This document shows positions 17,361-43,664 of a DNA stretch of 64,000 bases, one piece after another (the stretch's first letter is position 1; each line of letters opens with the position of its first letter). Both the position numbers and the translations under genes were made by a program. This stretch comes from Solemya velum gill symbiont (GTDB lineage Bacteria; Pseudomonadota; Gammaproteobacteria; Chromatiales; Chromatiaceae): NCBI RefSeq assembly GCF_000787395.1, contig NZ_JRAA01000002.1:248001-312000 (forward strand), given 5' to 3'. Below the pieces are notes generated by a model. It saw only the letters and a program-made list of their open reading frames with translations. It was not told the origin of the DNA and did not search any database.

Positions 17361-17449
17361 CTATTTGGGGTCAGAGTAAAAACTCTCGAGGATTTTACTC
17401 TGATCAGATACAGATCAGGCACCCGAGTTTTTACTCTGACCCCAAATAG
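17361..17449. repeat. 89-bp element with perfect 25-bp terminal inverted repeats
   Basis: Left arm 17361-17385 and right arm 17425-17449 are exact reverse complements, both containing GGGGTCAGAGT next to an A/T run. The 39-bp centre holds a degenerate copy of the same TTTTACTCTGA motif and a small CTGATC / GATCAG hairpin. I know the GGGGTCAGAGT motif as a recurrent flank of IS200-like REP-associated transposases in gammaproteobacteria, so this may be a non-autonomous relative. No transposase is present. Confidence 0.75.
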
Positions 17450-17495: not shown

Positions 17496-17531
17496 TTGAC
17501 AATTACAGGCGACTTGACAATTACAGGCGAC
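17496..17531. repeat. 18-bp tandem direct repeat containing TTGACA
   Basis: TTGACAATTACAGGCGAC occurs twice head to tail (17496-17513, 17514-17531), with no mismatch. The second copy supplies the -35 hexamer of the metK promoter. Confidence 0.9.
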
Positions 17532-17541
17532 AGCGGATAAT
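17514..17541 (+). promoter_or_regulatory. Sigma-70 promoter for metK
   Basis: A perfect -35 TTGACA (17514-17519), a 16-bp spacer and a -10 GATAAT (17536-17541). The predicted start near 17548 places the SAM-II aptamer at the very 5' end of the transcript, as expected for a riboswitch leader. Confidence 0.75.
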
Positions 17542-17556
17542 TGGCCCTTGATTACA

Positions 17557-17610
17557 CGGCGCTGATTTGAACTCAGATTGCGGGCGCCTTATAAAACCGG
17601 CTAAAGAGAG
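17557..17610 (+). ncRNA. SAM-II riboswitch aptamer upstream of metK
   Basis: The sequence follows the SAM-II (metA-type) consensus closely: P1 5' strand GGCGC (17558-17562), the invariant TGATTT directly after it, a variable segment ending ATTGC, the P1 3' strand GCGCC (17584-17588), an ATAAA block, then GGCTAAAGAGAG that closes the pseudoknot (CTC at 17572-17574 can pair with GAG at 17606-17610). SAM-II binds S-adenosylmethionine and turns off methionine/SAM genes. Its position in front of the SAM synthetase gene fits feedback control. Confidence 0.87.
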
Positions 17611-17626
17611 AACGAAAAGTTTTCCG

Positions 17627-17665
17627 AGGCCCCGCGAGTTCATTCGCGGGGCCTTTTTTGTTTTT
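17627..17665 (+). terminator. Leader intrinsic terminator (riboswitch expression platform) before metK
   Basis: A stem AGGCCCCGCGA / TCGCGGGGCCT (17627-17637 / 17644-17654) with a 6-nt loop, followed by TTTTTTGTTTTT. It lies between promoter and metK, so it would abort metK transcription unless prevented. The aptamer segment 17580-17588 (GCGGGCGCC) can pair over 8 bp, with one bulged C, with the terminator arm 17628-17635, giving a possible antiterminator when SAM is absent. Confidence 0.85.
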
Positions 17666-17695
17666 ACGAACATTTGAATATGAGTAAGCGAACCA

Positions 17696-18865
17696 ATGAG
17701 CGAACATCTATTTACATCTGAGTCTGTATCCGAGGGTCATCCCGACAAAATGTGCGACCAGGTTTCTGATGCTGTACTGGATGCCATTATTGCCGAAGAT
17801 CCGCACGCACGTGTTGCCTGCGAAACTCTCGTCAAGACCGGTATGGCACTGATTGCTGGTGAAATCACCACAACTGCCAAGCCAGACTACGAGGCGATCA
17901 TTCGCAATACCATCCGCGAAATCGGCTACGACAGTTCCGACAAGGGTTTTGATTACGAATCCTGCGCCGTCATGACTGCTCTCGGTGTTCAGTCTCCCGA
18001 TATTAACCAGGGTGTCGACCGCTCACGCCCCGAAGATCAGGGTGCCGGTGACCAGGGACTCATGTTTGGCTATGCCACCCATGAAACCGAGGTGCTGATG
18101 CCAGCCGCGATCGAATATTCACATCGCCTCGTCGAACGCCAGTCGGAAGTTCGTAACAGCGGTGAGCTTGACTGGTTACGCCCGGATGCGAAATCACAGG
18201 TCACGCTGCGCTATGTCGACAATATCCCTGTCGCTATCGATGCTGTTGTACTCTCAACCCAGCACGCGGACACACTATCACTCGAAGCACTTCAGGACGC
18301 AGTTCTTGATGTCATCATCAAGCCGGTTCTCGAACCAACAGGACTACTGCACTCGGGCACCAAGTTCCACATCAATCCGACAGGCAAATTCGTTATCGGC
18401 GGTCCCATGGGTGATGCCGGACTGACTGGCCGCAAAATCATCGTCGATACTTACGGTGGTGCAGCCCGTCATGGTGGTGGTGCATTCTCAGGCAAGGATC
18501 CATCGAAAGTTGACCGTTCAGCTGCCTATGCCGGACGCTATGTTGCCAAGAATATCGTTGCTGCCGGTCTCGCCGACCGCTGTGAAATCCAGGTCTCCTA
18601 CGCTATCGGTGTTGCGGAACCGACTTCCATCACCATCGATACGTTTGGTACAGGACAAGTCAGTGATGAACGCATCACAGAACTGGTGCGTGAGCACTTT
18701 GACCTGCGTCCATACGGCATTCTGAAGATGCTTGACCTGCTCAACACGGACAAGATCAAGTACCGCAAGACGGCTGCCTACGGCCACTTCGGACGTGAGA
18801 ATGAAGGATTCAGTTGGGAAGAGACTGACAAGGCAGAGACTCTCAGGGCTGCTGTCGGGAGTTGA
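17696..18865 (+). CDS. metK: S-adenosylmethionine synthetase
   Basis: Makes SAM from methionine and ATP. Signatures: [17 protein letters not shown] at the start, the [12 protein letters not shown] hexapeptide region, the [19 protein letters not shown] motif and [13 protein letters not shown] near the end. Length 389 is normal. The ATG is 30 bp after the leader terminator U-tract with only a weak ribosome site (GAGTAAG). Expression should be controlled by the upstream SAM-II riboswitch. Confidence 0.98.
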
Positions 18866-21464: not shown

Positions 21465-22520
21465 TTACCGTAGAATTGCCCGAATCCCCTTCTCTGCCGG
21501 ATTTCGTATCACGCCGCGTTCGGTAACGATGACATCGACCAGTTCGGCAGGTGTGACATCAAACACGGGATTCCACGCCTTTGCGCCCTTGGCACCGATG
21601 TTGGCACCGCCACACTGCAGAATCTCTGACTGCTCACGCGTCTCGATCGGTATCTCCTCGCCACAGGAGACATTGAGGTCAAGCGTCGAGGTTGGTGCAA
21701 CTACCATGAATTTAACTCCATGATGTCGTGCTGCAACCGCCAACTGGTAGGTGCCGATCTTGTTGGCGACATCGCCGTTAGCGGCAATTCGATCCGATCC
21801 GACTATCACCCAGCCAATACCCCCTTCACGCATACGTGCGCTGGCAGCACTATCGGCAATAACCGAAACCGGAATACCGCTGTGAACCAGTTCCCATGCA
21901 GTGAGCCGTGAACCCTGTAGCCAGGGACGTGTCTCATCGGCATACACATGTTCGATCTTGCCGCGCTGAAATGCGGTGCGTATGACACCGACCGCCGTAC
22001 CATGACCACCGGTCGCAAGCCCACCTGCATTGCAGTGAGTGATCACCGATGTCGGTTCAGTGATACATGCGCTGCCAAGCTCACCCATGAGACGGTTGGC
22101 AATCAGGTCTTCCTGGTGAATCTGGCGTGCCTCTATCAAGAGTCGGTCAACCAGGGTTTCACTATCTTCATCGATCAGTTTGCGCATGCGATCGATCGCC
22201 CAGAAGAGATTCACCGCGGTCGGGCGCGAGGCTGCCAGCGTTTCGAGATCGGTTATGACCGCATCGCGCCAGTTCGATTTGCCCTCAGCAAGCCTGTGCA
22301 TAACTGACAGCACAACGCCATAAGCCGCCGTGATACCGATGGCAGGCGCCCCCCGAACAACCATCGCGGTAATCGCCTCGGCAGTCTGTTGTGCATCCGT
22401 ACAACGGACGAAACGCTCAACATGCGGCATAACACGCTGGTCGAGCAGCAGCATTTCACTATCGACCCACTTGATCGCGTGATCCGGGTGAGCGGCTTCA
22501 GAGAGGTTGATGACTTCCAT
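21465..22520 (-). CDS. mtnA: S-methyl-5-thioribose-1-phosphate isomerase
   Basis: Isomerises methylthioribose 1-phosphate to methylthioribulose 1-phosphate in methionine salvage. Motifs: RGAPAIGITAAYGVVL, THCNAGGLATGGHGTAVGV with the catalytic Cys, and VGSDRIAANGDVANKIGTYQ with the catalytic Asp. Length 351 is typical. It is divergent from mtaD, which acts earlier in the same salvage route; genes for the following dehydratase and dioxygenase are not in the window. Confidence 0.95.
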   Translation of the reverse strand: MEVINLSEAAHPDHAIKWVDSEMLLLDQRVMPHVERFVRCTDAQQTAEAITAMVVRGAPAIGITAAYGVVLSVMHRLAEGKSNWRDAVITDLETLAASRPTAVNLFWAIDRMRKLIDEDSETLVDRLLIEARQIHQEDLIANRLMGELGSACITEPTSVITHCNAGGLATGGHGTAVGVIRTAFQRGKIEHVYADETRPWLQGSRLTAWELVHSGIPVSVIADSAASARMREGGIGWVIVGSDRIAANGDVANKIGTYQLAVAARHHGVKFMVVAPTSTLDLNVSCGEEIPIETREQSEILQCGGANIGAKGAKAWNPVFDVTPAELVDVIVTERGVIRNPAEKGIRAILR

Positions 22521-40830: not shown

Positions 40831-42462
40831 ATGCGTAAAAAACTCAGGCAATTTGACAATCCAAAATGGTTGCAAACCGATGTAAGGCCGCACTTCATCA
40901 AGGCCCTGAAACTGGTGCATACCCTGGTTAATATCCTATTCAAGGCGGACAAGCCGACTATCCGGCAGATACGCCTCGCTCCCCTGTTTCTGCTTGCTGC
41001 ACTCTTTCCTGCCTTGTTGCTTGCCTGGCTGCACTGGAGTGGCTTTGCCCAACCTCTGTCGACCCTCGGCGAAATAAAAGAGCGCGGAAAACTGGTGGTC
41101 GCAACCCGATACGGCCCAACCACCTATTTCAATGGTCCCGACGGCCCGGCCGGTTTCGAATATGACCTGATCAGTGATTTCGCAGAATCACTCGGCGTCG
41201 AGGCGGAATTTGTCATTCCGGAAAATCTCGAAAATACGCTCACACTGGTCAATAAAGAAGAGGCCGACCTTGTGGCTACGGGCATCCCCTACTCACCTGA
41301 TGATGCAAATAAGTACAATCTTGGCCCGGGTTACCTGGAGGTTTCCCGCCTGATCGTCTCCTTTGAGAAGAAAAAGAAAATCAAGGAGCTCAACAAGATC
41401 ACCAAGGGCGTGCTCAATGTCACATCTGATACCAGCCACGAGGCTCACCTCGATCAACTCAAAAAGTCAGGCGAACTGAAACTGCCGTGGAAAACTTCAG
41501 ATGAACTCGACAGTGAACGTCTGCTTTACCTGGTTAACGAGGAAGTGATCGACTACACCATTGTCGATTCGAACGAGTATGCCTATTTCAAACGCTACTT
41601 TCAGAACCTGAAAAAGGTATATGAACTGAGCAAACCTCAGCCGATCGCCTGGGCAATGAAAAAGAGCCGCGACCAGTCACTCCTGAAAGCGGTAGACAAG
41701 TACTTCAATCGCATCAAGAAGAACGGGCAACTGGAGATGCTTGTGCAGCGCTATTACCAGCACATTGACAAGCTCAAGAAACTCGACACAGACACCTTCT
41801 GGAAACGGGTCGAAACCCGCCTGCCGGAATTTGACAAAATGTTCAAAGATACAGCCGAGGAGTACGAACTCGACTGGCGCCTGCTTGCTGCTGTCGGCTA
41901 CCAGGAGTCACACTGGAATCCAAAGGCGGTCTCACCGACCGGTGTCAAAGGCCTGATGATGCTGACCAATGCAACAGCAAAGCAAGTCAAGATCAGGGAT
42001 AGAACAAATCCGGCGCAGAGTATTACAGGCGCCGCACGTTACATTCTCTGGCTGATGGAACAGCTGCCGGAGTCACTCAACGAGGAAGATAAAGTCTGGT
42101 TCACCCTCGCCGCCTACAACGTCGGCCTCGGACACCTGCTGGATGCACGCGTACTGACCCAGCGTGACAAGGCAAATCCCGACCGCTGGCTCGATGTGCG
42201 CGAGCGCCTGCCGCTGCTCGGACGTGCAAAATGGTACAAGACTGTTAAATATGGTTACGCACGCGGACGCGAACCTGTCACCTATGTCGACAACATCCGC
42301 AACTTCTATGACCTGTTGGTATGGAAAAGCAACTCGACCGCAGGCGAAGAAGTAGAGGCGCAAGAGCAGAAAGGTGAAGCCCCTGCAGAAGCTGTAGCGG
42401 AAGAGAAGCCAGCTGCAAAGGCAAACCTCTTGAAAGAGAGGGACGCAAAGCCACCGGCCTGA
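40831..42462 (+). CDS. mltF: Membrane-bound lytic transglycosylase F
   Basis: Two-domain protein: a periplasmic binding-protein-like module (GEIKERGKLVVATRYGPTTYF to about residue 310) and a C-terminal SLT domain with catalytic VGYQESHWNPKAVSPTGVKGLMMLT and AAYNVGLGHLLDAR. Unlike standard MltF, which begins with a signal peptide, the hydrophobic helix (LAPLFLLAALFPALLLAWL) lies at about residues 48-67 after a basic cytoplasmic N-terminus; the tail is Glu/Ala-rich. Length 543. Confidence 0.93.
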   Translation: MRKKLRQFDNPKWLQTDVRPHFIKALKLVHTLVNILFKADKPTIRQIRLAPLFLLAALFPALLLAWLHWSGFAQPLSTLGEIKERGKLVVATRYGPTTYFNGPDGPAGFEYDLISDFAESLGVEAEFVIPENLENTLTLVNKEEADLVATGIPYSPDDANKYNLGPGYLEVSRLIVSFEKKKKIKELNKITKGVLNVTSDTSHEAHLDQLKKSGELKLPWKTSDELDSERLLYLVNEEVIDYTIVDSNEYAYFKRYFQNLKKVYELSKPQPIAWAMKKSRDQSLLKAVDKYFNRIKKNGQLEMLVQRYYQHIDKLKKLDTDTFWKRVETRLPEFDKMFKDTAEEYELDWRLLAAVGYQESHWNPKAVSPTGVKGLMMLTNATAKQVKIRDRTNPAQSITGAARYILWLMEQLPESLNEEDKVWFTLAAYNVGLGHLLDARVLTQRDKANPDRWLDVRERLPLLGRAKWYKTVKYGYARGREPVTYVDNIRNFYDLLVWKSNSTAGEEVEAQEQKGEAPAEAVAEEKPAAKANLLKERDAKPPA

Positions 42463-42504
42463 CTGACACTCACGTGTTAAAGGTAGCGGGGTTGCACACA
42501 TTGT

Positions 42505-42590: not shown

Positions 42591-43664
42591 GTGATAAAAA
42601 CAGAACATAAGTCGATCATGAGAAATGGTCTTAAAGTGACATTACTGATGGTATTTACTGCACTGACCGCTTCTTGCGGTGGCGGCGGTGGTGGAGGTGG
42701 CGGTACAGCAACTCCAACAGGGTTAACGCTCAGAATAACTGACGCTCCAGTTGATGATCTGTGCGAGGTACACGTCAAGTTCACTGAAGTGATTCTTGAA
42801 CCGGCTGATGGCGGCACATCTGGCAAGGTGTGTTATGTACCGACAGGTACGGTACCGTCATTTCCGGCTTGCCTTAATTCTAATGAAGCCACAGTGATTG
42901 AGACAGCTGCCTTACCACAGCAGATTGAACTTACATCCCTCGATCAAGGAAGCAGTGTTGCGCTTCTCGATCAAGAAACACTGCCACCTGGTGAGTACAG
43001 CCAGATAAAACTGCTTATCTCTGAGGATGCGGATACCTTTGTCATCAGAAATACCGCGCCAAGCTGTGAAGTGCAACACGGTGAAAACCTGCGTATCCCA
43101 AGTAGCCTGCAGACGGGCCTGAAGCTCAACGTTGACTTTACACTGGCAGCAAACAGTCTTGTCGATTTCACGATCGATTTTGATCTCGGGAAATCCATCA
43201 AATATTTTAAAAATAGTGATTCATACCAGATGAATCCGACAGCAACGATTATCGATACCTTGATAGCCGACACGCAGTTTGATGGAACAGTGACAGACTC
43301 GCAAACAACACCGGAAACACCGATAGATCCGGCAACGTGCAAAGTCTATGTCTATCAAGGCAGCCCTGCCCAACCTGACGACAACTGCGTCATTAGCGAA
43401 GACTCGCTTGACCCAACTGCATGTGACCTCATCGGTGACCAGCCATACAAGTCAGCGGATCTGATTGGCAGTGTGTCACCATATAACTTTACTACAGGTT
43501 ATATGGAGGATGGAGATTACACAATTTTACTCGCCTGCGGGGAGGACAACACTGATTTAGATGATGATCTGACCTTCATCAATCCAAGCGTTTCCATAAA
43601 TCCCATCACAGCCGCACCGGGTTTAAATACGGTAGATTTCGTTATTGTGGATCCCACGCCTTGA
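42591..43664 (+). CDS. DUF4382 domain lipoprotein
   Basis: A 357-residue predicted lipoprotein: GTG start with AGGA 8 nt upstream, signal ending LTASC, then nine glycines directly after the Cys, a flexible tether. Residues about 45-190 match DUF4382 (LTLRITDAPVDDLCEVHVKFTEVILEPA; LPPGEYSQIKLLI), and a C-terminal part with Thr/Asp and paired Cys (DDNCVISEDSLDPTACD) could be a second beta domain. Function of the family is unknown; surface carbohydrate-binding-like folds have been suggested. Confidence 0.8.
   Translation: MIKTEHKSIMRNGLKVTLLMVFTALTASCGGGGGGGGGTATPTGLTLRITDAPVDDLCEVHVKFTEVILEPADGGTSGKVCYVPTGTVPSFPACLNSNEATVIETAALPQQIELTSLDQGSSVALLDQETLPPGEYSQIKLLISEDADTFVIRNTAPSCEVQHGENLRIPSSLQTGLKLNVDFTLAANSLVDFTIDFDLGKSIKYFKNSDSYQMNPTATIIDTLIADTQFDGTVTDSQTTPETPIDPATCKVYVYQGSPAQPDDNCVISEDSLDPTACDLIGDQPYKSADLIGSVSPYNFTTGYMEDGDYTILLACGEDNTDLDDDLTFINPSVSINPITAAPGLNTVDFVIVDPTP

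Follow-up and report, generated by a model that had tools for sequence, protein, structure and literature searches.

A SAM-II riboswitch aptamer and a predicted terminator switch ahead of metK in the Solemya velum gill symbiont

The metK leader

In the Solemya velum gill symbiont, metK, which encodes methionine adenosyltransferase (SAM synthetase), was examined within a 64,000-nucleotide stretch of genomic DNA (here called the window). A preliminary description of this DNA, made without database searches, had placed a strong promoter, a SAM-II riboswitch, and a strong terminator, in that order, before metK as the regulated gene, and all four elements were borne out (Table 1). The metK start lies 84 nt 3' of the aptamer, with the terminator between them.

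Table 1. Features of the metK leader and nearby genes (window positions).
Feature	Position	Strand	Details
Sigma-70-type promoter	17514-17541	+	TTGACA 17514-17519, 16-nt spacer, GATAAT 17536-17541; 11 of 12 consensus bases
SAM-II aptamer core	17558-17611	+	RF00521 match 17549-17625; lineage model R1
P1 5' strand, GGCGCU	17558-17563	+	Partner 17583-17588, final pair U-G; Rfam alignment; P1 pairs vary on both sides in relatives
L1, GAUUUG, SAM-II ligand-site strand	17564-17569	+	56 aligned aptamers: AUUUG invariant, first G nearly so
P2a 5' strand, CUC	17572-17574	+	Partner GAG 17608-17610; parsed structure, pair counts in relatives
P2b 5' strand, UUGCG	17578-17582	+	Opposite ACCGG 17596-17600; 3 of 5 positions pair (U-G, U-G, G-C)
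P1 3' strand, GGCGCC	17583-17588	+	Rfam alignment
GCUAAAG, SAM-II ligand-site strand	17600-17606	+	56 aptamers: GCUAAA invariant, G nearly invariant
Antiterminator 5' side (predicted)	17568-17590	+	17568-17574 with 17636-17642, 17580-17584 with 17631-17635, 17586-17590 with 17626-17630; fold to 17643
Antiterminator inner hairpin (predicted)	17606-17625	+	17608-17613 with 17619-17624, plus 17606-17625; occupies P2a 3' strand; minimum-energy fold
Intrinsic terminator	17626-17655	+	12-bp stem, 17626-17637 with 17644-17655; loop 17638-17643; -25.3 kcal/mol
metK, methionine adenosyltransferase	17696-18865	+	TIGR01034, 595 bits; genome's only copy
mtnA, methylthioribose-phosphate isomerase	21465-22520	-	Near metK

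Promoter-like sites of all kinds occurred at a mean of 0.5 per shuffled version of the region. The sister species (G001, locus L005; the sole other genome of the genus found) has identical promoter hexamers and 16-nt spacing, with a changed spacer sequence. The terminator stem is followed by TTTTTTGTTTTT (17654-17665). A terminator scan taken alone was at chance level (one found versus 0.7 expected), and the element is credible because of its strength, position, and conservation rather than the scan count. Its assignment to the upstream gene was ruled out, that gene being on the opposite strand.

Two repeats lie at or beside the promoter. Positions 17361-17449, just 5' of it, form a perfect 25-bp inverted repeat flanking 39 bp, in the manner of a small mobile element; its core, TTTGGGGTCAGAGTAAAAA, has four genomic copies, arranged as two pairs. 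Positions 17496-17531 are a perfect 18-bp tandem duplication of the -35 region, which gives two TTGACA boxes, compared with one in the sister species.

The Rfam model RF00521 (SAM_alpha, SAM-II) matched 17549-17625 on the forward strand over its full length, at 39.9 bits against a gathering score of 36, with an E value of 1.7e-5 for the 64-kb window and 1.7e-7 for the whole genome, and was the only Rfam model above its own gathering score at this site. The same covariance-model search found no SAM/SAH riboswitch (RF01727) in the window at gathering scores. A lineage model (R1), built on an alignment (A1) of 56 distinct aptamers from fetched loci, scored the metK aptamer at 71.1 bits, this copy being itself within the R1 training set. 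The window copy keeps 19 of the 19 columns that are invariant in the 56-sequence alignment, and both SAM-II ligand-site strands (L1 GAUUU and GCUAAAG) are present. The aptamer stands above chance because of the Rfam E value, and conservation of the leader in the sister species (below) is an independent argument. On these sequence grounds, the metK leader carries a genuine SAM-II aptamer, with SAM as its presumed ligand.

SAM-II among relatives

Searching 190 relatives with the Rfam model gave matches in 51 genomes, only 12 of which were above the cut-off. In the 56 aptamers, 97.6% of P1 cells were paired, and the covariation of P1 that the preliminary description had proposed to look for across relatives was found, four pairs having changed on both sides. 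Two P2a pairs changed on both sides, and P2b changed on one side only. As a register control, partners were shifted by 1 to 3 columns, upon which pairing fell from 88.9% to 54% or less.

R1 matched 73 of 210 genomes of the family, 185 of 369 sampled across the class Gammaproteobacteria (GTDB class, including the old betaproteobacteria; 161 with E values of 1e-10 or lower), and 111 of 398 across the phylum. None of the 39 metK-centred loci taken from named genomes as a negative control matched R1; the closest named metK relative (L031, 82% identity) has no SAM-II ahead of metK. These sequence matches suggest that SAM-II is far commoner in gammaproteobacteria than the literature implies and that the Rfam cut-off conceals most of the copies there.

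SAM-II has been reported as mainly alphaproteobacterial, with further examples from Coxiella, Bordetella, and Bacteroides, and with promoters just 5' of P1 and terminators past P2 (Corbino 2005, PMC1273637). Barrick and Breaker (2007, PMC2258182) judged its occurrence in gammaproteobacteria to be sporadic and possibly a result of horizontal transfer; in alpha- and betaproteobacteria, they found terminators associated with it more often than with any other class. Later accounts placed it in alpha-, beta-, and gammaproteobacteria (Meyer 2009, PMC2704228) and solely in Rhizobiales and Rhodobacterales (Leyn 2014, PMC4239095). Two remarks in the preliminary description do not hold up against this record: the class is not exceptional in a gammaproteobacterium, having been reported from 2005 to 2009 and matched here in the class at the frequency given above, and the statement that many copies act on translation finds no support in the 2005 and 2007 papers, which respectively note and stress terminators. 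No report of SAM-II ahead of metK was found in the literature searched, largely openly readable papers; metK is an uncommon target of SAM-II but an established one of other SAM riboswitch classes.

Parsing yielded 167 distinct sites, with targets assigned by motif recognition in translations: 54 precede metK, 80 metZ-like genes, 4 metF, 3 metX, and 26 other or unidentified targets. The 54 metK-leader aptamers represent 53 metK genes (one metK has two tandem aptamers) and span seven family labels (f1, f44, f54, f81, f123, f133, and f188). Terminators follow 51 of the 54 by automatic detection, with a few arm boundaries imprecise; the three leaders that have none (L017, L262, and L263, all f54) may work differently. 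The metK and metZ copies of gammaproteobacteria have near-identical aptamers and terminators placed alike.

The SAM-II elements of Agrobacterium metA and S. meliloti metZ share with the window the aptamer, a promoter a few bases 5' of P1, a terminator between P2 and the gene, and the expected off-switch; for S. meliloti metZ, termination was predicted and RNA levels were consistent with it (PMC9373788). The window differs from both in its target, metK rather than metA, metX, metY, or metZ, and in its antiterminator, formed by the aptamer 5' half with the terminator arm and loop. The betaproteobacterial metXZ element (Leyn 2014, PMC4239095), described by its authors as new, is likewise a two-helix pseudoknot followed by a terminator, before metX or metZ. 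In three loci (L189, L192, and L209), SAM-II with a terminator lies ahead of metX, and the metXZ element, compared with SAM-II by description only, may be SAM-II.

Several arrangements were observed in passing. Tandem SAM-II pairs occur in L274 (16922-19012; genome G873), L011, L015, L118, L150, L187, L197, and L201-L205, often with a terminator after the first aptamer and with the second near the start codon. The pair in G873 lies ahead of a divergent second copy of metK and a gene with an HD domain; a third SAM-II copy comes next, together with an unknown gene of 248 aa. A reverse transcriptase and helicase/restriction-like genes, typical of defence islands, lie a few kilobases away. G361 (L201-L205 and L275) has ten SAM-II matches; several lie in tandem leaders that are nearly identical to one another and precede small genes of unknown kind. 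A short SAM-II copy in L133 (G142) precedes a metE-like gene with internal stop codons.

Antiterminator pairing

Growing transcripts of the window leader were folded by nearest-neighbour, minimum-energy methods, which ignore the pseudoknot. In transcripts up to 17640, the best fold retains the P1 hairpin (-25.3 kcal/mol). When the transcript reaches 17643, with the terminator 5' arm and loop out, the best fold is the antiterminator at -28.0 kcal/mol, against -25.3 kcal/mol for the best fold that keeps P1, a gap of 2.7 kcal/mol that ligand binding could plausibly reverse. In the full-length transcript, the terminator fold (-44.9 kcal/mol) is 5.4 kcal/mol more stable than the fold with the antiterminator forced (-39.5 kcal/mol). 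Because the antiterminator is the less stable of the two once the terminator is complete, the choice would have to be made during transcription and would depend on kinetics; other terminating riboswitches likewise make a timed decision.

The antiterminator joins 17568-17590 to 17626-17642 through 17 bp in three blocks and is incompatible with P1, P2a, and P2b. An 8-bp pairing had been proposed in the preliminary description (17580-17584 with 17631-17635 and, after one bulge, 17586-17588 with 17628-17630); it is exact but forms just part of a longer helix, which further pairs 17568-17574 to 17636-17642 and 17589-17590 to 17626-17627. Its 5' side, labelled there as the P1 3' region, actually spans two elements, the P1 3' strand and, before it, the 3' portion of the strand that makes the 5' side of P2b. 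The existence of an antiterminator is supported both by the best fold at 17643 and by the cognate pairing energy of -26.3 kcal/mol; terminator arms taken from other metK leaders average -11.6 kcal/mol. Only 1 of 2,000 shuffled arms paired as well as the window arm. Random terminator loops still allowed 274 of 600 sequences to fold into the antiterminator, because its GCGGG and GCC parts alone suffice. The loop-only test was weak, with 182 of 4,096 loops pairing at least as strongly as the real one, which makes the evidence from the loop portion of the helix suggestive rather than decisive.

Most gammaproteobacterial copies have another design, in which the terminator 5' arm pairs with GCUAAAGNG, the ligand-site strand itself; the other strand serves in the window and in a few relatives. 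The common design is supported because its pairing has changed on both sides in f188 (GCUAAACAG with CUGUUUAGC in L191). It was tried for the window and rejected, the GCUAAAG strand pairing with the terminator arm at -6.3 kcal/mol and the arm containing no CUUUAGC. The window design recurs with other letters in L022, L229, L131, and L134; the comparison of leaders for antiterminator pairs that had been suggested for this DNA revealed an A-U to G-C double change (UGAACUC:GAGUUCA in the window and UGAGCUC:GAGCUCA in L229; UGAGUUCAGA:UCUGAGCUCA in L131). Linkers of the GAGAAC..GUUUUC type, like the inner hairpin of the window, are present in L022 and L229. Over all metK leaders, cognate pairing beat shuffled pairing, which was as good in 10 of 5,000 trials for the window design and 3 of 5,000 for the common design, kinship being ignored in this test. 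Nearly all related leaders have an antiterminator directed at the aptamer through one of the two designs. The 53 metK genes, with one aptamer and two antiterminator designs, amount to a natural experiment on the evolution of expression platforms. Both the aptamer class and the logic of the off-switch were known before; the novelty lies in metK as the target and in the variant antiterminator.

Proposed control of metK and alternatives

The leader very probably acts as a SAM-II off-switch, shutting metK by premature transcription termination when SAM is plentiful. Transcription would start just upstream of P1. At low SAM, the finished terminator 5' arm and loop would pair with the aptamer 5' half (17568-17590), and the linker hairpin would capture the P2a 3' strand; the antiterminator would thereby disrupt P1 and the pseudoknot and delay the terminator, letting polymerase enter metK. 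Once SAM is bound, these strands would be retained by the P1/P2 pseudoknot, and the arm would be free to form the terminator, leaving metK untranscribed. The transcription-termination off-switch of the preliminary description is supported to the extent that an intrinsic terminator and a mutually exclusive antiterminator are present; that SAM binding alters termination is what we infer from them.

The aptamer might bind SAM while the terminator serves as a fixed attenuator outside SAM control, as discussed for S. meliloti metA. The terminator is indeed very strong, and the S. meliloti authors could predict no riboswitch-driven antiterminator for the extra metA terminator (PMC9373788). This reading is nonetheless improbable, as the window has an extended antiterminator that gives the lowest-energy fold prior to synthesis of the 3' arm, and as nearly all related leaders have an aptamer antiterminator of one or the other design. 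Control of metK translation through a hidden ribosome binding site is less likely again: the Sargasso Sea RNA, the best-studied SAM-II example, is presumed to work in this way (PMC9373788), and L017, L262, and L263, metK leaders of another family, lack a terminator, but in the window a terminator lies within the 84-nt interval before the start codon and no aptamer strand overlaps a Shine-Dalgarno site.

That the element is a decayed SAM-II relic, its switching lost, is hardly credible. Two of the five P2b positions are mismatched, and the G-A mismatch is confined, among the 56 parsed copies, to the window species and its sister; the Rfam consensus, in the same register, likewise pairs at three positions. 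Every invariant position is retained, however, and from P1 to the T-run the leader is identical to that of G001 at 102 of 104 positions (98%; two alignment columns differ), whereas 146 of 390 third codon positions of metK differ (37%). The DNA 5' of the promoter is 55% identical in the two species. Judged by this comparison, the leader is under selection. A SAM-II relative with another ligand, either SAH or SAM and SAH together, is just as hard to credit: the SAM/SAH class of Rhodobacterales (RF01727) is also a pseudoknotted SAM-binding switch ahead of metK, but it is a separate class that binds SAH too, SAM-II alone exceeds its gathering score at the window site, the positions conserved here are SAM-II positions, and a separate SAH riboswitch is present in the genome.

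Beyond the SAM-II off-switch proposed for metK, the genome has a second SAM-II copy ahead of metZ (69.6 bits with R1), which is missing from the Rfam-model search, and one SAH riboswitch. Together with SAM-II at metK and metZ, the SAH riboswitch would give the SAM cycle a coherent control by RNA. MetJ was not found in the genome; it was present in just 4 of the 369 class genomes and in none of those with SAM-II, numbers too few to test exclusion. The essential SAM synthetase gene would be under direct RNA feedback in bacteria without the E. coli-type repressor MetJ. We give about even chances to the broader idea that SAM-II is a principal SAM sensor of MetJ-less gammaproteobacteria, acting at metK and metZ, and that its platform has switched between two antiterminators while gene and aptamer stayed constant.

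Besides mtnA, an amidohydrolase of the MTA/SAH deaminase kind is encoded near metK. Elsewhere in the window, positions 42411-42500 (forward strand) match the c-di-GMP-I-GGC riboswitch (60.4 bits; gathering score, 59); this match overlaps the end of an MltF-like gene and lies upstream of the gene at 42591-43664.
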